Shown one piece after another: positions 1 to 7,795 of a DNA stretch of 7,795 nucleotides. The first letter of the stretch is position 1; the number at the start of each line of letters is the position of its first letter. Origin of the DNA: Desulfobacterales bacterium (GTDB taxonomy: Bacteria; Desulfobacterota; Desulfobacteria; Desulfobacterales; JAUWMJ01); assembly GCA_030613225.1 (NCBI GenBank), contig JAUWMJ010000126.1, positions 1-7,795 on the forward strand, read 5' to 3'. The notes under the pieces were generated by a model. That model saw nothing but the letters and a program-made list of their open reading frames with translations, was not told where the DNA came from and ran no database searches. Position numbers and translations under genes: made by a program.

Positions 1-538
1 AGGTGTTTCGCAGTCCCTCCAATGGGGTATGCCAGTTGCTGTAGAACTCAAATACTTCAGGCAGACCTGCAATTTTAACCGGTTTTAAAATCTCGTGAGT
101 ATTTTTATGCACTCTTGCTTCTTCCTCCATTTTTTCATCGGGTGAAGCATCAAAGTTTTGAAGAAATTTAGTGAATCTGACAATATGAATGAGTTCGTGG
201 GTTATGATATAAAGTGTAAAAGGAAAAAGTTTCAAACCGGCAGATTTATTCAGAGTTTCGCAGATTGAATGGTCCTGTAGGCATATCTTATAAAAATCGT
301 ATGTAGAGGAACCAAGGGAGCTGTTTTTATGTTGGCCCACATAACGGATGATCTGCGCAAAAGGACCGGTTACAATTTCATCAGAACTAAGATTTGTCTG
401 TGTCTTTATATCGTATCTTCGTCGAAGCCACTGACTTGCAGACATTTTATAAAAATTGCTTACAAGCTCTTCAGCCATTTCAACTGAGCTGTTTACAATT
501 TCAATCTGATCAGAAGTAAATTGTTTTAGTTTATCCAT
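1..538 (-). CDS. Partial uncharacterised protein with HExxH motif (possible zinc metalloprotease-like)
   Basis: An open frame on the minus strand starts at ATG 538-536 and runs off the left edge, giving 179 codons with no stop, so the C-terminus is missing. I do not recognise a named family. The clearest motif is ITHELIHIV at residues 112-120: HELIH (114-118) has hydrophobic residues on both sides, as in the zinc signature of many metalloproteases. A run of three glutamates (138-140) begins 20 residues after the second His, the spacing at which gluzincins place their third zinc ligand. His144 and His148 follow. There is no signal peptide or membrane segment, so it is probably cytoplasmic. No Shine-Dalgarno is visible; the ATG lies only about 5 bases from the arm of a repeat element, and an in-frame stop occurs about 37 bases upstream, so an N-terminal extension is unlikely. 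Met21 is an alternative start. The coding call is solid; protease activity is inference. Confidence 0.8.
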   Translation of the reverse strand, partial: MDKLKQFTSDQIEIVNSSVEMAEELVSNFYKMSASQWLRRRYDIKTQTNLSSDEIVTGPFAQIIRYVGQHKNSSLGSSTYDFYKICLQDHSICETLNKSAGLKLFPFTLYIITHELIHIVRFTKFLQNFDASPDEKMEEEARVHKNTHEILKPVKIAGLPEVFEFYSNWHTPLEGLRNT

Positions 539-543
539 ATTGT

Positions 544-746
544 GATTAAAGTGTCTAAAGTGAACTAAAGTGAACTAAAGTGCCTAAAGTATAGGTGTCG
601 CTTTGCTCCATCCTTTTTTATAAAAATAAAATAGAAAGAATTCCTTAACTTTAGACACTTTAGTCACTTTAGCTCACTTTAGGCACTCTTATTGACTCAG
701 TCAAAGCCAATTATTTCTGACCACGTACAAAAGACGTGGTTTTAAA
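544..746 (+). repeat. Palindromic repeat element A1 (9-10-bp unit arms, central core, external hairpin)
   Basis: The left arm (544-590) is a degenerate direct array of TAAAGTGNC/TAAAGTGAAC units with a 9-10-bp period. The right arm (643-690) is the same array in inverted orientation. Between them lies an AT-rich core (591-642) reading GGTGTCGCTTTGCTCC, then TTTTTTATAAAAA, then GAATTCCTTAAC. A spacer (691-707) leads to a module containing GCCAATTATTTCTGACC and a 19-nt hairpin, with homology continuing to about 746. The element fills the whole gap between the HExxH gene and the upstream membrane-protein gene. It is homologous to the element at 6366-6595, but with the core in the opposite orientation relative to the hairpin module. 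No open frame or transposase lies inside, so if mobile it is non-autonomous. Confidence 0.9.
721..739 (+). other. Hairpin module of repeat element A1
   Basis: CCACGT (721-726) and ACGTGG (734-739) form a perfect 6-bp stem around a 7-nt loop, followed on the plus strand by TTTTAAAAATT. On the minus strand, which carries the genes, no U-tract follows the hairpin, so it is a poor intrinsic terminator for the gene ending at 766. The same 19-nt hairpin, with the flank GTGGTCAGAAATNATTGG, recurs at 6376-6394, so it belongs to the repeat family and was not evolved locally as a terminator. Confidence 0.75.
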
Positions 747-765
747 AATTGAATAAATTACGAAA

Positions 766-1857
766 TTATTCCACTATAATGTTAGCAGATTCATCAGTTT
801 TCTTCAAAGTCGGAGTTTGTTCGTCAGATTCTTCCTGGCCAGGAATTGTTTTATCACTTTCTTTCAGGTTGGTTCCTGTGTCAATGGTTTCATCAGGAAC
901 CGGAGCTGTTTGCTTATCATCCTCCAAAGAAGTATCGGGTTTCTTTTCTTCTTTAAGGGGAGTAACGACAGGTTTGTTCTCCCGGGCAGGTGAAGCTTCA
1001 GGTTTCTTTTTTGGGGGAGGCGAAACAGTAGTGATCTTTTTTTTAACAGGCAAGAGCGCTGATTTCTTTTTTTTAGGAGCTGGGAGTGTTCTGAATTTCA
1101 CTCCAATGGGAAAGTCTTTTTCAATCAGTAATTTTCCGGTTCTGGAATATACATAGACTGTAGCGATATTAAATTGGCCAGGGCCGGTTTGATCATTAAC
1201 TCGGAATTTCATTGTTTTTAAATTGAAGATTGAAAAATTACGTCCTTTTTTACCTGAAGGTTTTCCTGAAACCAGCGGAACATGTGGAATAATAAGCCAT
1301 TTTTTCTGGTCGTCGTCTCCCTTGTTTTTTAATATCACCACAGACCTTCCGGCTATTGCATGTGCTTTAGACCCGGTATTTCTAAGCATGTATTGAACTC
1401 TCAGCGTATTTAAATCCGGCTGGTGAAATACAATAAGATCATCAGCAGAGACGCTCAAAGGCATTTCAGGCTGTACTGATTTTTTGTCAATATTAGAGTT
1501 TTTAGCAGCTGTTTTGTCAAAAGGAATTGTATCATCTGTTTTTGCCATGCTTTCTTCAACCCTTGACTCGGTTAAAATCAGCCTGGTCATGAGAATATCT
1601 TTTTCATGTTCAAGGGAAATGATTTTGTGCTGTAAATTCTTAAGATCAAACAGCATGTTTTTATTAGATTCAATTGAGTTTTTGTAAAGAAAACTAAGCC
1701 ATGCGCTTGCGGCTATGGCGAGAACCAACACGGATACGGTAGTAAATGCCAGTGTTTTAAACCATTTAATTGTAATTGATTTTCCGCGATTACTGATAAT
1801 TAAAAGAGTCCACTGTCGAACTCTTTTTGAGGTTTTCGGCTTTGAAATATTTGGCAT
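766..1857 (-). CDS. Membrane-anchored coiled-coil protein with beta-rich domain and Lys/Pro/Glu tail, function unknown
   Basis: A 363-residue protein that I cannot assign to a named family. A basic N-terminus includes WTLLIISNRGKSITI (16-30), which loosely resembles the cytoplasmic leader of some membrane-bound M23 peptidases, but no peptidase domain follows. A single membrane segment spans about 36-57. Residues 60-105 look like a short coiled coil. Residues 133-252 are rich in predicted beta strands, with landmarks LRVQYMLRNTG (152-162) and FSIFNLKTMKF (208-218). From about 259 to the end the sequence is low-complexity Lys/Pro/Glu/Thr, like an extended periplasmic tether. The likely topology is N-in with the bulk in the periplasm. 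It follows the SAM enzyme gene after 204 bp containing an inverted repeat. The start has an A-rich leader but no nearby Shine-Dalgarno. A cell-envelope role is inferred only from its architecture. Confidence 0.85.
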   Translation of the reverse strand: MPNISKPKTSKRVRQWTLLIISNRGKSITIKWFKTLAFTTVSVLVLAIAASAWLSFLYKNSIESNKNMLFDLKNLQHKIISLEHEKDILMTRLILTESRVEESMAKTDDTIPFDKTAAKNSNIDKKSVQPEMPLSVSADDLIVFHQPDLNTLRVQYMLRNTGSKAHAIAGRSVVILKNKGDDDQKKWLIIPHVPLVSGKPSGKKGRNFSIFNLKTMKFRVNDQTGPGQFNIATVYVYSRTGKLLIEKDFPIGVKFRTLPAPKKKKSALLPVKKKITTVSPPPKKKPEASPARENKPVVTPLKEEKKPDTSLEDDKQTAPVPDETIDTGTNLKESDKTIPGQEESDEQTPTLKKTDESANIIVE

Positions 1858-1885
1858 TGTTTTATTATTTTACCTTTTTTGTAAT

Positions 1886-2034
1886 AGTTCAGCCACAAAG
1901 GCACCAAGACACTAAAAATATAATATACTTTCTTAAGGTACAGTATATGCCGTATCTACAACTTTATTCTTCTATTTTTGATAAAGCTTTAAAATTAAAG
2001 TCCTTTTGTGTCTTTGTGACTTAGTGGCTGAACT
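1886..2034 (+). repeat. Inverted-repeat element D1 with 8-bp unit arms
   Basis: AGTTCAGCCAC (1886-1896) and GTGGCTGAACT (2024-2034) form perfect 11-bp terminal inverted repeats. Inside them each arm is a short octamer array: CACAAAGG, CACCAAGA, CACTAAAA on the left, and, read on the minus strand, CACTAAGT, CACAAAGA, CACAAAA on the right. The arms extend to about 1917 and from about 2004. The interior of roughly 86 bp is AT-rich and shows no clear match to the core shared by elements A and B, apart from a CTTAAGG and a short AATAGAA-like stretch. It occupies most of the gap between the SAM enzyme gene and the membrane-protein gene. Transcripts through it could fold into a long hairpin. Confidence 0.85.
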
Positions 2035-2061
2035 TTTATCCTTTTTTAAGTTGATTTTAAT

Positions 2062-2868
2062 TCATTTTACAGTGCTTATACTGACAACATCACCTTTTTC
2101 AACCATAAAGTGATTTGCGGCATTACCGCCATTTACTGATATTTCAAGATATCCACGGCTTCCAATGATAGCAAGGGGATGGCCGGCAATTGCGCTACTG
2201 TAATTCGGCGACAAACCACTGATTTTATCCCTGCCTACATTGATGCAAAGTTTTTTGCCGGGAACTGTATTATAAATCTTTTCAAGGTCGTCTAAATTAA
2301 TATTTGTTATCAGATTGCCGAAATGGTCAATTGAGACAATAGAGCCGACAAGTTCACCATTATCTGAAAAATATGGTTCAGGAATAGATAAACATATTAG
2401 ATTTTTTTGTGCAACAGGTGTACCAAGCTTTTTTATCGGAACACCTAAAGACAGATGGGCACTAACCGGGGCAAAGATGTCTCTGCCGTGGAATGTACGG
2501 CTGACAGGATCTAAGAAATAACTGGTATTATCAATACGGGCAATCGAATTAATGTTTCCTTCATTTATTAATAGTGTTAAAACACCGTTATCAGGAGCCA
2601 GAAAAATATGGTCCGCTATTTTAAAGGCTATTATTTTTCGGTCACTTCCTACTGTCGGATCCACCACAACCACATGAACAGTACCTTGCGGAAAATATCG
2701 GTAAGAAGAATAAATGGTATATGCTGCCTGGACCAGATCCTGTGGATCGACATGGTGTGTAATGTCGACAATAACGGCTGATGGATTTAAAGACAATATA
2801 ACACCCTTCATTATACCGGCATATTCATCAGCAGTGCCGAAATCGGTAGTTAGAGTAATTATGGACAT
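2062..2868 (-). CDS. S-adenosylmethionine hydroxide adenosyltransferase (SAM hydrolase, DUF62 family)
   Basis: A 268-residue cytoplasmic protein beginning MSIITLTTDFG, the characteristic start of the SAM hydroxide adenosyltransferase family. Family members split SAM with water into adenosine and methionine and are relatives of the fluorinase/chlorinase enzymes. Visible signatures are TTDFG (7-11), the DPTVGSDR segment (70-77), APDNG (91-95), FHGRDIF (126-132) and the C-terminal-domain segment IDHFGNLITN (180-189). The Asp-Arg-His set described for archaeal homologues maps to Asp70, Arg77 and His127, all present. Length is normal for the family. The start is fixed by homology, although the leader (TTATTAAAAA before ATG) has no Shine-Dalgarno. 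It lies 198 bp downstream of ruvB, separated by repeat element B1. The physiological role of these enzymes is unclear, and nothing here narrows it. Confidence 0.95.
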   Translation of the reverse strand: MSIITLTTDFGTADEYAGIMKGVILSLNPSAVIVDITHHVDPQDLVQAAYTIYSSYRYFPQGTVHVVVVDPTVGSDRKIIAFKIADHIFLAPDNGVLTLLINEGNINSIARIDNTSYFLDPVSRTFHGRDIFAPVSAHLSLGVPIKKLGTPVAQKNLICLSIPEPYFSDNGELVGSIVSIDHFGNLITNINLDDLEKIYNTVPGKKLCINVGRDKISGLSPNYSSAIAGHPLAIIGSRGYLEISVNGGNAANHFMVEKGDVVSISTVK

Positions 2869-2943
2869 TTTTTAATAAGTGACTATGCATATTTTTAACA
2901 TAAGTTTGAAAAATGCGACTATTTCAGAGCAGCGAATGACGAT

Positions 2944-3060
2944 GAATTGACGATTGAAGATTGACGATTGAAGATTTAAGGATGGAAATCTTTTTTATAA
3001 AATCGGTTTAGCGTAGCGACTTCCACCAATCGCCAATCATCAATCATCAATCGACAATCT
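2944..3060 (-). repeat. Palindromic repeat element B1 (7-bp unit arms, shared core)
   Basis: The left arm (2944-2981) is a heptad array of GATTGAC/GATTGAA ending in TTTAAGG. The right arm (3027-3060) is its inverse, with units AATCGCC, AATCATC, AATCATC, AATCGAC. The core (2982-3026), read on the minus strand, has GGTGGAAGTCGCTACGCT, then TTTTATAAAAAA, then TCCTTAAATC. This is the same order of blocks as in elements A1 and A2 although the arms are unrelated. The element begins 6 bases after the ruvB stop codon. The remaining 75 bases up to the SAM enzyme start (2869-2943) show no convincing promoter. Confidence 0.9.
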
Positions 3061-3066
3061 TTTGTG

Positions 3067-4110
3067 TCATCGAAACAACTTCTTCTGAACACTGTATCCG
3101 AGGTGGCGGTATGCAGATTCAGATGCCTTTCGTCCGGAAGATGTTCTAATTATCATTCCGATTTTTAAAAGATACGGCTCGACTACATCTACAAGAGTAT
3201 CGGTTTCTTCCTGAAGTGTTGCGGCAATCGCATCAATACCGACAGGGCCGCCATTATAAAATTCGATAATCGTTTTAAGAAAGCGTCGGTCAAGATTAGT
3301 CAATCCCTTCTCGTCAACTCCTTCAAGAGAAAGAGCGGCTTTTACTGCTTCCTTTGAAATTGTTCCGTCTATCTTAACCTGAGAATAGTCTCTTACTCGT
3401 TTTAAAAGCCGGTTTAAAATCCTGGGCGTTCCCCTGGAGCGTTTGGCTAGTTCAGCTGCTCCTTGGTCATCAATTGCCGTTTCAAGCAGAGAGGCTGATC
3501 GTCTGGAAATTGTGACCAGATCCGGCTCGCTATAAAAATCAAGGCTCCTGAAGATACCAAATCGATCTCTCAAAGGTGCAGATAACAGCCCTACTCGGGT
3601 TGTAGCACCGACAAGAGTGAAACGGTTAAGTCGATACCTGTGGCTTCGTGCATGAAAACCCTTGTCAAACATGAAATCGACCGCAAAATCTTCCATGGCC
3701 GGATATAAAAATTCTTCTACAGCCTTTGGCGTACGGTGTATTTCATCAACAAACAGGAGGTCCCCGTATTCAAGGTGAGTAAGAATACCTATCAGATTTC
3801 CGCCTTTATCAAGAGCAGGCCCTGAGGTGATTGTGATATTCGCGCCCATTTCATTTGCTATAATATGAGCCAGTGTAGTTTTACCAAGGCCGGGCGGGCC
3901 ATGGAAAAGAACATGATCAATCGGTTCTTTACGCTGTTGTGCCGCCTGGATTGCAATTTTAAGAGTTTCAACGACCTCGGACTGTCCAATGTAGTCTGAG
4001 AAATTTAATGGACGCAGGGACAGAATTTCAGGTTCCTGGTCTGCAGGCAGGCAAGACCCGGTGAGTATGCCCTGATTCTCTGAAGAATGTGTTATGATAT
4101 CGTCTGTCAT
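3067..4110 (-). CDS. ruvB: Holliday junction branch-migration ATPase RuvB
   Basis: A 347-residue RuvB. It forms hexameric rings on either side of RuvA-bound junctions and drives branch migration by ATP hydrolysis. All key AAA+ elements are visible: [11 protein letters not shown] (33-43), Walker [10 protein letters not shown] (71-79), Walker [10 protein letters not shown] (118-126), sensor 1 GATTR (168-172), the arginine-finger segment PLRDRFGI (179-186) and sensor 2 RGTPRI (226-231). The C-terminal winged-helix domain runs from about 265 to 340 and contains [10 protein letters not shown] (287-296) and EPYLLKIG (311-318). Length matches the family (E. coli 336). The N-terminal extension of about 30 residues before the conserved core is unremarkable. 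The start lies directly against heptad array C1, and the only Shine-Dalgarno-like stretch (ACGAG, 4 nt before the ATG) comes from that array. It ends 6 bases before element B1. Confidence 0.98.
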
Positions 4111-4113
4111 ATT

Positions 4114-4180
4114 ACTCGTTGCTTGTTGCTCGTTGCTGGTTACTGGTTACTCGTTACTGGGTACTGGCTGCTGGTTACTC
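4114..4180 (+). repeat. Heptad tandem array C1 (RCTSGTT), single-armed, between ruvA and ruvB
   Basis: Nine full head-to-tail heptads run without interruption from 4114 to 4176: ACTCGTT, GCTTGTT, GCTCGTT, GCTGGTT, ACTGGTT, ACTCGTT, ACTGGGT, ACTGGCT, GCTGGTT. A partial ACTC follows. On the coding strand the unit is AACSAGY. Unlike the other elements there is no inverted second arm and no core; on the ruvA side a 10-bp palindrome CCGAATTCGG (4180-4189) follows. The array starts 3 bases upstream of the ruvB ATG and so forms its leader. It is intergenic and interrupted by stops, so it is not coding. Confidence 0.9.
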
Positions 4181-4203
4181 CGAATTCGGCGAGCTCTTTC
4201 CCC

Positions 4204-4220
4204 TTCTGCCTTTGTGCCTT
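4204..4220 (-). repeat. Octamer remnant of the D1-type unit directly after ruvA
   Basis: On the coding strand, immediately after the ruvA stop, the sequence reads AAGGCACAAAGGCAGAA. This contains the CACAAAGG unit seen in the arms of element D1, in about two tandem units. It is separated from heptad array C1 by about 23 bases including CCGAATTCGG, so the ruvA-ruvB gap looks like a composite of two repeat types. The match is short and the call is tentative. Confidence 0.45.
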
Positions 4221-4838
4221 TCATTTTGAGGTTTCCCCGCGATATACTTCTTCAAAGAGTTCTTCAGGTGTTGAAACAGACCTGTTACGATTTAACGCTT
4301 GTGCTATCATCTGGTTTGCATCTGAAGTTTTATGTCCAAGCTGGTCAACAAGAACTCTAAGAACCTGACTTTTAAAATCCACATAAACAGGAGCGGTTAC
4401 AGTGTCTCCCTTGCTGATTAATACAAATTTTTCCATTTTGCCTTTTAATGTGGCGATAATTTTCTGCGCAGTCCTGTTGCCTATGCCTTTTAATTGCTTG
4501 AGAGCGGAAGCATTTTCTGTTTCAATGGCGCGTGCTATATCACGAACAGGAATGTTCATGGCTCTGGCGGCTTTTAATGGACCAACAGCTTCAACAGAAA
4601 TAAAAAGTTGAAAAAATTCCTTTTCAGCTTCGAGATTAAAACCGATGAGTACAGGCTTTGGCTGTCTTTCGGTTTGTTGGTAATATATGTAAAGAGAAAG
4701 TTCATCGCCGACCATTTTATTTTTTAAGGTTTCCACTACAATTGAAGGAAGAAGAACTTCGTATCCGACATGGTTCACAAGAAGAAGTATCCGATCTTCT
4801 TCTTTCTTTAAAATTTTACCTTCTAAATATCCTATCAT
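4221..4838 (-). CDS. ruvA: Holliday junction-binding protein RuvA
   Basis: A 205-residue RuvA (E. coli 203). It binds the four-way junction as a tetramer and loads RuvB. The start MIGYLEG matches the family start MIGRLxG, which fixes it despite no Shine-Dalgarno (leader AACAATTAG). The OB-fold domain covers about 1-65 with GYEV at 25-28. The two helix-hairpin-helix motifs are VEAVGPLKAARAM (82-94) and LKQLKGIGNRTAQKI (113-127). The C-terminal RuvB-contacting domain is about 153-202 (LRVLVDQLGHK, 160-170). Two departures from E. coli are visible. The acidic-pin pair Glu55-Asp56 aligns with Gln59-Pro60 in a TERQPKPVLIGF loop. The first HhH has Gly-Pro-Leu where Gly-Pro-Lys is usual. The gene is separated from ruvC by 178 bp with element B2 and from ruvB by 110 bp with array C1. 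Confidence 0.97.
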   Translation of the reverse strand: MIGYLEGKILKKEEDRILLLVNHVGYEVLLPSIVVETLKNKMVGDELSLYIYYQQTERQPKPVLIGFNLEAEKEFFQLFISVEAVGPLKAARAMNIPVRDIARAIETENASALKQLKGIGNRTAQKIIATLKGKMEKFVLISKGDTVTAPVYVDFKSQVLRVLVDQLGHKTSDANQMIAQALNRNRSVSTPEELFEEVYRGETSK

Positions 4839-4919
4839 CTAATTGTTTAGAACCTGGCTTTGAAAGTATTAATATTCTATTTTACCCCTGACCTGGAAAT
4901 GAAAAGAAATATTTATTAT

Positions 4920-5021
4920 TGTAGATTGAAGATTGTCGATTTAAGGTATTCTGTCGATTATAATTAAAAAGAAAGAGCGAAGCGATTCCGCAAATCATCA
5001 ATCATCAATCATCAATCTACA
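4920..5021 (-). repeat. Palindromic repeat element B2 (7-bp unit arms, shared core), overlapping the ruvC stop
   Basis: TGTAGATTGA (4920-4929) and TCAATCTACA (5012-5021) are perfect 10-bp terminal inverted repeats. The arms are heptad arrays: GATTGAA, GATTGTC, GATTTAAGG on the left, and three AATCATC units followed by AATCTAC on the right (4992-5020). Read on the minus strand the core has GCGGAATCGCTTCGCTC, then CTTTTTAATTATAA, then GACAGAATACCTTAA, closely paralleling the core of A2. The right end overlaps ruvC, so the stop codon TAG and the last two bases of the final Val codon lie within the repeat. The remaining 81 bases up to ruvA (4839-4919) are AT-rich without a convincing promoter. 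Confidence 0.92.
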
Positions 5022-5508
5022 CCTTGTGATCTCCAGCACGATAAAGACCAATAAGTGAAAGACCTAATGCATCAGATGCATGGTAAGGTCTAATCGGTGT
5101 TGTAATGTTTAACAAATTTCGAACTGATTTTTCAAGTTGTATTTTGCTTGCATTCCCATTTCCGGTTAAAACCTGCTTGGCCTCGCGGACGGATATTTCT
5201 GTAATGGATACATTAGTCCGGCAACCTGCAAGAAGAATAACACCTGTGACCCGCCCTAAAGTTATACCCGATTTTGGGTATTTGGGAAGGGAAAATACAT
5301 CTTCGACAACCATAAGATCGGGCTTTTCTTCCTTTAAAAGAGAAAGAAGGCGTGTGTAGATTTGTTCAAGGCGGTTTGGCAAAGAGATGTTTTTTGAAGT
5401 GTTGATTGCGCCAAAGGAAAAACCATCGATTTTAAACCCTGTTCCTCTGACAATTCCAACACCTGTTGCAGCCAGGCCAGGATCTATGCCGATGATCTTC
5501 ATCATCAT
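5017..5508 (-). CDS. ruvC: Holliday junction resolvase RuvC
   Basis: A 163-residue RuvC endonuclease, which cuts Holliday junctions symmetrically as a dimer within RuvABC. The RNase H-like fold is evident from KIIGIDPGLAATGVGIV (4-20) with catalytic Asp9, VVEDVF (67-72) with Glu69, the GNGNASKIQ loop (116-124), and PYHASDALGLSL (141-152). At the position of E. coli Asp138 there is His143, with Asp146 matching Asp141. An Asp/Glu/His/Asp set is also used by Thermus RuvC, so the enzyme is expected to be active. Three consecutive ATG codons open the frame and which one is used is undetermined; an AGGT about 10 bases upstream favours the first. cpoB ends 14 bp upstream, suggesting co-transcription. 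The C-terminus stops inside repeat element B2 and is about 10 residues shorter than in E. coli. Confidence 0.97.
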   Translation of the reverse strand: MMMKIIGIDPGLAATGVGIVRGTGFKIDGFSFGAINTSKNISLPNRLEQIYTRLLSLLKEEKPDLMVVEDVFSLPKYPKSGITLGRVTGVILLAGCRTNVSITEISVREAKQVLTGNGNASKIQLEKSVRNLLNITTPIRPYHASDALGLSLIGLYRAGDHKV

Positions 5509-5522
5509 GCGCTCATTACCTG

Positions 5523-6362
5523 TTAAAACTCTTTCAGCTTTTTTCTTGCTATTTTTGCTTCGTTTGATCCGGGATATTTTTTTATCAGTTCTTTAAAAAT
5601 AAGACGGGAATTTGGTTTATCTTTAAGGTTATAAAAGGCAAATCCTTGTTTTAAAAGGGAAGCTTGAACTTTATTCCCTTTAGGATAATTCTCAATTACT
5701 TTCTGGTATTCCAGTATGGCTTTTTCATACCATTTTTCACGATAAAAGATCTCACCGATCCAAAATTGTGCATTGTCAGCACTTTTTGATTTTGGGTATC
5801 GATCAAGTAATTCCTGAAATTTATCGCGCGCAATGTCAAGGCTGCCTTCGTCAAAGGCCTGTTTTGCAAGCTGGTAAAGTTCATTTTCAGTAAGTTTTTT
5901 TTCAGGCTGGTACGAAGGTTTTTTCGCAAGGTCAGGCTTTATTGTATGGACGGATTCGGATAATTCGAGATTCAGATACTGTTCAATGCGAATAATGCGT
6001 TCTTTATTAAAAGAAGTTATTTCTTTGACTCTGTCTAACCGTTTTTCCGACTTTTTGCTTAAATCATCATAAGACTTTGAAGAAGACGTTAATTTTTTTT
6101 TTAAAAGAAATTCGGTTTCTTCAATTTTTCCACTTAATGCCTGAATTTCTGCTCTGATTTCGCTGAGTTCTGCACGCAGTCCGGCAGACTGACCCCTTAA
6201 TTTTTTCCCCTCGGTTTTTTGGGATTTTGTAACCGTTTTAATCTTTGAGAGCTGATATTCCAATTCCACCAGACGATCATCAAGAATTATTACATCCTGC
6301 CGGGAAGCGCATCCGCCCATAGCGAGAAAAAAAGCAATGATAATAAGGATTGAGTGTTTCAT
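5523..6362 (-). CDS. cpoB: Tol-Pal system coiled-coil/TPR protein CpoB (YbgF), predicted lipoprotein
   Basis: A 279-residue exported protein that coordinates the Tol-Pal system with peptidoglycan synthesis at division (family knowledge from E. coli). A signal peptide covers 1-17 and ends LAMGGC, with Cys18 as a plausible lipidation site; E. coli CpoB is soluble, so the lipoprotein form is a difference. Residues about 24-130 are heptad-rich coiled coil. A linker is followed by three TPR-like units at roughly 160-193, 197-230 and 234-267, with landmarks FDEGSLDIARDKFQELL (170-186), YEKAILEYQKVIENYP (212-227) and SRLIFKELIKKYPGS (252-266). The TPR block is the typical C-terminal domain of the family. 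It is separated from pal by a terminator and element A2, so it probably needs its own promoter. The start abuts the repeat, and no Shine-Dalgarno is visible. Confidence 0.93.
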   Translation of the reverse strand: MKHSILIIIAFFLAMGGCASRQDVIILDDRLVELEYQLSKIKTVTKSQKTEGKKLRGQSAGLRAELSEIRAEIQALSGKIEETEFLLKKKLTSSSKSYDDLSKKSEKRLDRVKEITSFNKERIIRIEQYLNLELSESVHTIKPDLAKKPSYQPEKKLTENELYQLAKQAFDEGSLDIARDKFQELLDRYPKSKSADNAQFWIGEIFYREKWYEKAILEYQKVIENYPKGNKVQASLLKQGFAFYNLKDKPNSRLIFKELIKKYPGSNEAKIARKKLKEF

Positions 6363-6365
6363 TTG

Positions 6366-6595
6366 ATTTTTGAAACCACGTCCTTTGGGAGTGGTCAGAA
6401 ATGATTGGCCAGAGTAAATTTCAAAGAGTGACTAAAGTGAGCTAAAGTGACTAAAATGACTAAAGTTAAGGTGTTGCTTCGCTCCCGTCTTCGCCTTCGG
6501 CTACGCCGCGGCAAGCCATCTTTTTTATAAAAATAAAACAGACAGAATTCCTTAACTTTAGTCACTTTAGTTCACTTTAGTCACTTTAGTCACTT
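6366..6595 (+). repeat. Palindromic repeat element A2 (9-10-bp unit arms, core with GC-rich insertion, hairpin)
   Basis: Left to right: a hairpin module (6368-6407), a spacer, a left arm (6424-6471) of TAAAGTGAC/TAAAGTGAGC units, a core (6472-6549) and an inverted right arm (6550-6595). CTAAAGTTAAGG (6460-6471) and CCTTAACTTTAG (6550-6561) are perfect 12-bp inverted repeats bounding the core. The core shares GGTG, GCTTCGCTCC, TTTTTTATAAAAATAAAA and GAATTCCTTAAC with A1 but carries an extra GC-rich stretch of about 32 bp (6486-6517). The hairpin-proximal arm matches that of A1 at about 45 of 48 positions. The element starts about 4 bases upstream of the cpoB ATG and fills most of the pal-cpoB gap. 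Confidence 0.92.
6376..6394 (+). other. Hairpin module of repeat element A2 in the cpoB leader
   Basis: CCAC (6376-6379) pairs with GTGG (6391-6394). After one G/A mismatch the stem continues through T-G, C-G and C-G pairs to a 3-nt loop. It has the same 19-nt length and outer CCACGTC..GTGG as the hairpin at 721-739, with the conserved flank TCAGAAATNATTGGC. Here it lies 14 bases upstream of the cpoB start codon, within its expected untranslated leader, and could affect translation; that is inference. Confidence 0.65.
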
Positions 6596-6629
6596 AAAAC
6601 TTGGTGCAGCCCCTTAGAAGGGCAAATAA

Positions 6630-6654
6630 AACCCACTTCCTTCGGAAGTGAGTT
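6630..6654 (-). terminator. Intrinsic terminator after pal (bidirectional)
   Basis: AACCCACTTCC (6630-6640) and GGAAGTGAGTT (6644-6654) form an 11-bp stem with one G-T pair around a 3-nt loop. Read on the minus strand, the stem is followed by TTATTTG after its closing GGGTT, ending tolB-pal transcription 24 bases after the pal stop. On the plus strand it is followed by a longer T run, so it would also stop transcription coming the other way out of element A2. Confidence 0.85.
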
Positions 6655-6677
6655 TTTTTCGCTTTAAATGAATCAAT

Positions 6678-7232
6678 TTACGGAATAAGACAATGTGCGC
6701 GCCTGTTTTTGGCCCAGGCTTCTTCGTTATGACCTGTATCTACAGGGCGCTCTTCACCATAGCTTACGGTTGAGATCCTGTAAGCTTCAATGCCAAGGTC
6801 AACGAGAAATGACTTTGCGCTATCAGCACGTCTTTCGCCAAGAGCAAGGTTGTATTCATTTGTGCCGCGCTCATCACAATGGCCCTCAAGGCTCACAACA
6901 ACGTCTGGATTATCACGCATCCAGTCCGCCTTTCTTGATAAGATATCCTGTGACATTGAATCGAGTGTGGATTTATCAAATTCAAAGTAAATATCTTCAC
7001 TCAAAAACATGTTTCGCGCAGCCAGAATGGCGCGTTCTTCCGCACTCATGTCGGTAGTGGGCTGCACTTCTTCAGTTGCCGGTGTTGCTGTTTCTTCAGG
7101 CACTTTTTCAGGTTCTGTTGTTGCTGTTTCTTCAGTAGTATCCTTAACTTCCTGTTGAGCACAGGATACAGTAAACAGAAACCCGGGAATTAAAAAAAGC
7201 ATTACTAAACCTATCCACAAATTTTTTCGCAT
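6678..7232 (-). CDS. pal: Peptidoglycan-associated lipoprotein Pal
   Basis: A 184-residue outer-membrane lipoprotein of the Tol-Pal system. It holds the outer membrane to peptidoglycan and binds TolB. The signal peptide (1-23) ends FTVSC with lipidated Cys24; Thr at -3 is slightly unusual for a lipobox. Residues 27-62 are a Glu/Thr/Pro-rich tether. The OmpA-like domain covers about 80-184 with [10 protein letters not shown] (81-90), [20 protein letters not shown] (116-135), [13 protein letters not shown] (156-168) and AWAKNRRAH (172-180), all hallmarks of Pal. Beyond the conserved Cys119 there is a second cysteine, Cys181, in the C-terminal CLIP. The start is supported by a strong Shine-Dalgarno. 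tolB ends 29 bp upstream, so the two form an operon, closed by the terminator at 6630-6654. Confidence 0.98.
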
Positions 7233-7237
7233 TTTTT

Positions 7238-7245
7238 CCTCCTTT
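7238..7245 (-). promoter_or_regulatory. Strong ribosome binding site of pal
   Basis: On the minus strand AAAGGAGG lies 5 bases before the pal ATG. It is the only near-perfect Shine-Dalgarno among the seven start codons visible in this window. It suggests that Pal is made at a higher level than its neighbours. Confidence 0.9.
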
Positions 7246-7261
7246 CAAAATCAAAAACCAT

Positions 7262-7795
7262 TTATTCATTGTTAACATTTGGTGACCATTTTGGGTTGGT
7301 TTGCTCACCGTGTAAAAAAAGAAGCCGCCTCTGGTCGGTTCCAGAGGCAGTCATAATATAGATTCTGGATGGACCTTCTCGTGTAGAGCTAAATGCAATG
7401 AGGCTCCCGTCTGGTGACCAGGAGGGTGACTCATTGTCTGCTGCATCGAAGGTAAGTTGAATCGGTTGCCGACTCTTTATATCAACTACGAAAATATTAT
7501 TTCTTCCTTTCTCAAGTGCACAATACGCAATTTGGTCTCCCCTGGGAGACCAGTTTGGTTGTGTATTGTATTGACCATTAAATGTCAACCTTTCAACCTG
7601 TCCGGAATCGATATTCTTTATATAAATCTGGGGTGATCCGGCACGGTTTGAAACAAAGGCTATCTTTTTGCCGTCAGGGGACCAGGTCGGTGATATATCA
7701 CTGCCCCACTTTCTGGTCAGTCTTTTAATAATTTTCCCGGTTCCAGTCAACAGATAAATTTCCTGGTCTCCTGAAAAGGAAAGTGTAGCAGCAAG
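7262..7795 (-). CDS. tolB: Tol-Pal system beta-propeller protein TolB, C-terminal part
   Basis: The frame is open from the right edge and ends at TAA 7264-7262, giving the last 177 residues of a protein normally about 430 long. It holds the end of the periplasmic TolB six-bladed beta-propeller, which binds Pal. Four blade signatures occur at exact 44-residue intervals: WSPDG, WSPRG, WSPDG and WSPNV at fragment residues 38, 82, 126 and 170. SNRAGSPQIY (49-58) and SSTREGPSRIYIM (136-148) are typical TolB blade sequences. The TTG at 7750-7748 is an internal Leu codon, since the TolB-like sequence (LSFSGDQEIYLL) continues upstream of it to the window edge. pal follows after 29 bp. Confidence 0.96.
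   Translation of the reverse strand, partial: LAATLSFSGDQEIYLLTGTGKIIKRLTRKWGSDISPTWSPDGKKIAFVSNRAGSPQIYIKNIDSGQVERLTFNGQYNTQPNWSPRGDQIAYCALEKGRNNIFVVDIKSRQPIQLTFDAADNESPSWSPDGSLIAFSSTREGPSRIYIMTASGTDQRRLLFLHGEQTNPKWSPNVNNE

Follow-up and report, generated by a model that had tools for sequence, protein, structure and literature searches.

A conserved core within palindromic repeats of different tandem-arm families in Desulfobacterales

Because the moving enzyme reads the ends of a small mobile repeat, it is by these ends that such repeats are usually defined. In Nostoc punctiforme, the small dispersed repeats (Elhai et al. 2008) are reportedly very small, hairpin-like and embedded in heptameric tandem repeats, with nested insertions, and their hairpin is said to be supported by compensatory changes. 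Repetitive extragenic palindromic (REP) sequences and REPINs are characterized by a palindrome that bears a GTAG (or CGTC) tag at one of its ends. The closest anatomy that we found in print, as far as the excerpts extend, is that of Geobacter metallireducens, in which paired inverted tandem 7-8-mer sites are annotated as predicted global regulator sites and insertion sequences lie at a fixed distance from class 1 sites (PMC2700814); class 2 sites are described as sharing an evolutionary origin with those of class 1, and four sites are assigned to both classes (PMC2700814, PMC2996986). Here we analyze a 7,795-nucleotide stretch of DNA from a Desulfobacterales bacterium (assembly GCA_030613225.1, contig JAUWMJ010000126.1, positions 1 to 7,795 of the forward strand; hereafter the window). 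It contains four intergenic palindromic repeats, A1 (542-687), A2 (6427-6595), B1 (2943-3056) and B2 (4918-5021), with two kinds of tandem-unit arms around a shared core.

A common core between unrelated arms

The elements measure ~100-170 bp and consist of an asymmetric ~40-bp core, TCGCT[T/A]CGCTC followed by an AT-rich spacer and TTGAYAGAATWCCT, inside inverted arms of tandem units. The A1 and A2 cores lie on the plus strand and the B1 and B2 cores on the minus strand. With core borders refined by reading the sequence from TCGC to CCT, the parts are as follows.

542-590, plus strand: A1 left arm, tandem CTAAAGTG-type units with a period of 9-10
598-645, plus strand: A1 core, TCGCTTTGCT ... 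GAATTCCT; 31.5 bits with a profile from which the window was excluded
646-687, plus strand: A1 right arm, with units of the same family in inverted orientation
2943-2978, minus strand: B1 arm on the CCT side of the core, GATTGNN units with a period of 7
2979-3019, minus strand: B1 core, divergent; 9.9 bits, marginal; 91% match over 64 bp in genome G001
3020-3056, minus strand: B1 arm on the TCGC side of the core
4918-4943, minus strand: B2 arm on the CCT side of the core
4944-4985, minus strand: B2 core; 30.2 bits, E 2.8e-9; matches A cores in genome G006
4986-5021, minus strand: B2 arm on the TCGC side of the core; its outermost bases include the stop codon of ruvC (5017-5019)
6427-6469, plus strand: A2 left arm
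6474-6552, plus strand: A2 core, interrupted; two profile pieces of 11.1 and 16.1 bits
6486-6515, plus strand: insertion in the A2 core, ~30 bp, GC-rich and REP-like, resembling a repeat at several places of G001 (L033, L039, L057)
6553-6595, plus strand: A2 right arm

These borders replace the approximate ones of the preliminary description of the window, and they set apart the ~30 extra bp of the A2 core. The GGTG/GCGG motif left of the core, which had been counted among the common core blocks, proved to be family-specific. That the arms differ in unit and period was borne out by Tandem Repeats Finder, which detected 9-10-bp arrays at 542-590, 648-687, 6427-6466 and 6555-6595 and 7-bp arrays at 2946-2980, 3024-3052, 4918-4945 and 4993-5017, and by a repeat search that returned inverted pairs in A1, A2 and B2 and direct repeats connecting B1 with B2. 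Folded as single-stranded DNA, A1 (z -9.3) and A2 (z -12.4) were far better than shuffled sequences, and B1 (z -5.4) and B2 (z -3.0) moderately so.

To compare the cores across arm types, we took 11 A cores, all of them from genomes other than that of the window, trimmed off their arms, built an nhmmer profile and ran it on the window and on 300 first-order Markov shuffles. This A-only profile matched A1 at 31.5 bits, B2 at 30.2 bits (E 2.8e-9), A2 in two pieces at 16.1 and 11.1 bits and B1 at 9.9 bits, whereas the best matches in the 300 shuffled windows reached 13.2 and then 9.4 bits. The background is exceeded by a wide margin in A1 and B2 and, despite its interruption, also in A2, and B1 alone is marginal, as one shuffle match scores higher; the proposal of a core common to A and B elements is therefore confirmed by B2 beyond doubt and by B1 only marginally (9.9 versus 13.2 bits). 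Relatives of B1 with the same core score higher with the A profile, namely 13.5 bits for the G006 copy (L058; 84% identity over nearly the whole element) and 15.3 bits for the G001 copy (L051; 91% over 64 bp), and from these alignments B1 is best classed as a divergent subtype. Used as a DNA query, the B2 element matched the cores of A elements in G006 through query part 39-86, with E values down to ~1e-8. Chance similarity of the cores was ruled out by the A-only profile together with the identical core found within different arms, described below.

Arm families, hybrids and exchange of cores

Four families of arm units recur beside the core. Family A has CACTTTAG followed by one or two variable bases, B has GATTGNN, C has GAACATC, and E, perhaps derived from C, has GAATATC. 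Their proportions lean towards A and B because the loci are mostly the best matches per genome. A word-count script applied to the 75-bp flanks of 144 non-redundant elements assigned both sides to the same family in 97 (A 71, B 17, E 5, C 4), while one side in 31 and both sides in 11 fell below the word threshold, often with a short arm still visible. Single-case arms also occur, comprising GTGAACC (L103), AATTAGG (L276) and a GATTTTG-like unit (L268), in addition to GTCAGGA (L277) and CTTGGTT (L278) beside only a partial core; in L267, GAGTGTG and the A unit are joined within one arm.

Two families were assigned to the same element in five cases: L286 (C/A), L072 (B/C), L274 (B/E-like), and L183 and L105 (both C/E). 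The two C/E pairs were not counted as hybrids because C and E words overlap. Inspection by eye added two hybrids, L250 with B and C arms and L103 with GTGAACC opposite a single B unit, giving a total of about five of 144 with L286, L072 and L274. In L304 and L298, another hairpin (GCGCTGAAAG...) stands in place of the right half, which looks like a joining of two left halves within the AT-rich spacer.

Identical or nearly identical cores also occur in different arm families. Among 108 distinct cores with one assigned family, an identical 36-bp core occurs in the A-armed L030 and the B-armed L196, with identity reaching ~41 bp in the flanks, and the B-armed L093 is one edit away from the A-armed L237. 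Nearest-neighbor cores were A only for 67 of 73 A cores; of the 18 B cores, five had only A neighbors and one only C/E neighbors, and of the 16 C/E cores, two had only A neighbors and two only A and B. Exchange is the simplest reading, since slow divergence of the arms cannot yield an identical core between unrelated arms. With several unrelated families, mixed-arm elements and this shared 36-bp sequence, the idea of a conserved core with exchangeable arms is upheld. Regeneration of one arm from the other is not supported: left arms were no closer to their own right arm than to the right arms of other elements (19.2 versus 20.5 for A; 17.3 versus 16.4 for B), so arms look inherited with the family rather than copied from each other.

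Arms and core appear to form one intergenic unit. We surveyed 704 kb, consisting of the window and 40 stretches of six relatives (contigs chosen for having matches), for clusters of arm words and for core matches of at least 8 bits. A first word rule gave a core in 24/24 inverted clusters (A 13/13, B 7/7, C/E 4/4) and in 4/9 direct-only clusters. A looser second rule gave 20/21 inverted clusters (A 11/11, B 5/5, C/E 4/5), the fifth C/E cluster resembling a chance occurrence of arm words inside a gene. Of 19 full cores, none fell within an open reading frame (ORF) of at least 120 aa, although 85% of that DNA is ORF-like. High copy number, intergenic position and the lack of an ORF agree with the earlier proposal of a modular, non-autonomous repeat family.

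Distribution and change between genomes

By RuvC, the nearest relative of the window is L001 (81% identical), and the relatives L001-L012 are listed under the names Deltaproteobacteria, Desulfobacterales, Desulfobacteraceae or Desulfatitalea. With the A2 element as query, six of seven relatives gave matches, four of them 100 to 105; these figures are matches and not copies, because a palindrome can be matched on both strands. For a wider survey, we used a sequence-only model built from 24 cores, with a threshold of E<=1e-4 in the order survey. Of 291 genomes in a sample from the order of the nearest relative (G001), 107 had core matches; a sample of 395 from the phylum of G001 gave nine positives, five of which (G001, G033, G093, G112 and G127) were already positive in the order sample. 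Thirty genomes picked from the order positives all matched, 2 to 149 times each (150 candidates scored per genome). Viral contigs gave no match to one exact core pattern, and plasmids none to a distant blastn search with one A core. A search of titles and abstracts retrieved no published description of this core; an earlier description in full texts or supplements, which lay outside that search, is possible.

L001 lacks all four window elements at the corresponding places; at the B2 place, for example, L001 has 45 bp and the window 194 bp. The RuvC end in the window is unlike that of L001, as if insertion of B2 had trimmed the last codons of ruvC (5017-5021).

Shorter-term change was visible between G065 and G006, whose longer aligned blocks show 91-95% identity. 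A complete A element of G065 corresponds at one site to only a short stretch in G006; this sole presence/absence site of the core element shows no clear target duplication and possibly a remnant. Other orthologous elements of the two genomes differ in their arm units. Such gain and loss of units between orthologous copies is what slippage, as suggested earlier, would produce; regeneration from the opposite arm is not supported.

Other insertions touch the elements. In G065, a 101-bp insertion lies exactly at the arm/core junction on the TCGC side, without visible target duplication, and insertions of the same kind and place occur in L031 and L129. This ~101-bp junction element, with CCCTGGCC/GGCCAGGG-like ends, was located at ~2871-2971 of L217, at ~985-1085 of L031 and up to ~786 of L129 (G065, G005, G006), and is perhaps a site-specific parasite of the core repeat. 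In G006 (L154-L162), a short hairpin, CCGG[A/G]TAAACCGG, is directly followed by arm-like sequence of A or of other palindromes in six of eight cases by eye, and the same hairpin also stands beside a B element (L058). An insertion in L308 relative to L171 (~16230) is a tandem-armed palindrome with GGAATGTTGG / CCAACATTCC units, present in G005 and absent from G003, G266 and G290.

The window itself holds a gene block that we take from the translations to be ruvC, ruvA, ruvB and genes for S-adenosylmethionine hydroxide adenosyltransferase-like, YbgF-, Pal- and TolB-like proteins. It also contains a further palindrome at 1882-2038, with TTTGTG/CACAAAG-type arms and a different center; a similar arm type stands in G006 opposite an A element of G065. 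A TTACTGG 7-mer tandem array of ~10 units occupies 4112-4179 and has no inverted partner among the longest inverted pairs listed. Beside A1 and A2 lie hairpin-bearing flanks that form an inverted pair (706-766 and 6349-6409; 61 nt, 79% complementary). Because they are on opposite sides of equally oriented cores, the core occurs in both orientations relative to the flank.

Explanations and comparison with described repeats

We consider it probable that these elements form one superfamily of short, non-autonomous, palindromic intergenic repeats, similar to REP sequences and miniature inverted-repeat transposable elements (MITEs), in which recombination at the core exchanges the arms. A copy would spread as arms plus core, moved in trans by an enzyme that needs both arms; hybrids would then lose mobility, which would account for the rarity of mixed pairs. 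Ectopic recombination, gene conversion or template switching inside the core may join arms of different families to produce hybrids, and the same processes may carry a core into other arms to produce identical cores. The core is the presumed place of such events because it is common to all families. Unit number would subsequently change by slippage.

Several observations weigh against this view. Ordinary MITEs conserve their ends and not their center. Most cores group with others of their own arm family, so exchange is not a constant process, and at a 20-bit limit only 14 of the 21 inverted clusters from the second word rule contain a core (A 8, B 3, C/E 3). One short A-like inverted pair, on the minus strand at ~3345-3390 of L162 in G006, has no core and was missed by both word rules. 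Among the sites compared, none was a clean empty site with a target duplication, and some others held other repeats or unique sequence. At the presence/absence site, the element may have been lost from G006, as the short stretch resembles arm sequence. Two orthologous sites pair an A element of one genome with an unrelated palindrome of the second, so general palindrome turnover could explain part of the polymorphism. The Y1 search in relatives, with 30 loci examined, tied no transposase to the element. An autonomous copy, in which an ORF would divide the core, was not found among the full (180), left-half (40) and right-half (18) matches in 1.9 Mb of partly overlapping loci, nor did these loci contain a parent transposon with the same ends.

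The main rival, now weakened and in our judgment unlikely, is that the core itself is a very small mobile element, comparable to the Nostoc repeats, inserting mid-way into pre-existing tandem-repeat palindromes of various families. Homology does have sharp common borders (TCGC ... CCT) with family-specific junctions outside them, L066, L094 and L072 read as one element just behind the TCGCTTCGCT block of another, this block is sometimes replaced by other hairpins (L036, L049, L067), and the pair in L162 lacks a core. However, inverted arm clusters already contain the core almost throughout under either word rule, and nested copies carry arms, indicating that the inserted unit is arms plus core and not the core alone. 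Another reading, in which the arrays are bound by a protein that shapes the chromosome or regulates genes (IHF/HU or other) and the core serves as an anchor or second site, would match the intergenic location and, in the excerpts of PMC2700814, the anatomy of Geobacter classes 1-3, with tandem 7-8-mers paired on opposite strands. At least four unrelated arm families with different periods around one core in one order would be unexpected for the site of a single regulator, and with the absence of all four elements from the matching places of L001 and the change of arm units between close genomes, we regard this function as quite improbable. Equally doubtful is a more far-reaching version, in which the core is the replicating heart and the interchangeable arms are ‘addresses’ read by different host or element enzymes, such that a change of arms would permit escape to a new mobilizing system, and the arrays are written by a slippage- or template-driven process.

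Mobilization as REP/REPIN sequences by a RAYT (REP-associated tyrosine, Y1 HUH) transposase, with the TCGCTTCGCTC block as the REP hairpin, appears very unlikely. The elements are intergenic, numerous and have a short imperfect hairpin, and Y1 genes exist in 11 of 12 relatives. Of 59 Y1 matches, 30 were examined in stretches of 1.7-3.4 kb, and only one (L129 in G006) had a core in its stretch, at 788-828 and 78 bases from the Y1 start (gene 2-709, minus strand, start 709). This copy is armless and bears the junction insertion, and one such neighbor is not surprising given so many intergenic copies. Three word patterns detected no A, B or C arms at the 30 loci, and next to the TCGCTTCGCTC block neither GTAG nor CGTC is constant in 24 aligned cores, CGTC occurring in part of them only. 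The 1.9-Mb draft G005 has no Y1 match and yet 103 A2-query matches. The Y1/TnpA-REP partner envisaged in the preliminary description is thus not borne out. Least probable of all is a structured RNA or terminator in which a long stem (the arms) varies and the loop (the core) is kept. In its favor, A1 and A2 fold strongly as single-stranded DNA, and three named helices pair more than slid versions (for example, 83% versus 45-64%), an excess expected anyway because the structure was derived from the same sequences. Counts on one strand put these helices no higher than shuffled controls, and RNAalifold returned no consensus pairs on either strand of the 24 cores. In the hairpin block, no pair has changed on both sides and pairing equals that of shuffles, and an apparent covariation in TCYGTC/GACAGA was not borne out by counts. 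Rfam gave no match at the gathering score, only sub-threshold hairpin look-alikes of miRNA families (24-45 bits versus 70-245 needed). The two arms of an element are also not matched to each other beyond their family.

Among described repeats, those of Nostoc are similar in being small and hairpin-like, in their heptamer context and in nesting; in our elements, the tandem repeats form inverted arms that accompany the core, the hairpin block lacks pairs changed on both sides and the bacteria are unrelated. As far as the excerpts of PMC2700814 and PMC2996986 go, the Geobacter sites share tandem 7-8-mers paired on opposite strands, multiple copies and an origin in the former Deltaproteobacteria, and their insertion sequences at a fixed distance recall the insert at the arm/core junction. 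They differ in inter-site distance, which is variable, and in their units (GTTGCTYN, TCTCCGTS[Y] and MTYCTGA), which by eye are unlike those of A, B, C and E; these excerpts mention neither a common core nor arm exchange. REPIN/RAYT systems, in the excerpts of PMC3116915 and PMC3733652, are likewise palindromic, intergenic, high-copy and non-autonomous, whereas our elements have a conserved center with variable arms, no constant GTAG tag and no RAYT association at the loci examined. MITEs (in part, PMC4853749) are also short, with terminal inverted repeats, no ORF and many copies, but here the ends vary instead of the center, and target duplication and a parent transposase were not found at the loci compared. 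The TAACTGA heptamer repeats of Beggiatoaceae are intergenic tandem arrays in many copies as well; in the excerpt of PMC4679880, they are almost only direct (one indirect), with no core mentioned.

Our results bring several types of heptamer and nonamer arrays together as variants of a single element that runs through a large group of environmental, sulfate-reducer-type bacteria, and this superfamily offers a direct way to ask how new families of non-autonomous repeats arise. A constant center with unrelated ends, in some elements with a different family at each end, would be a natural record of end-swapping and is the reverse of the usual arrangement in small mobile repeats.

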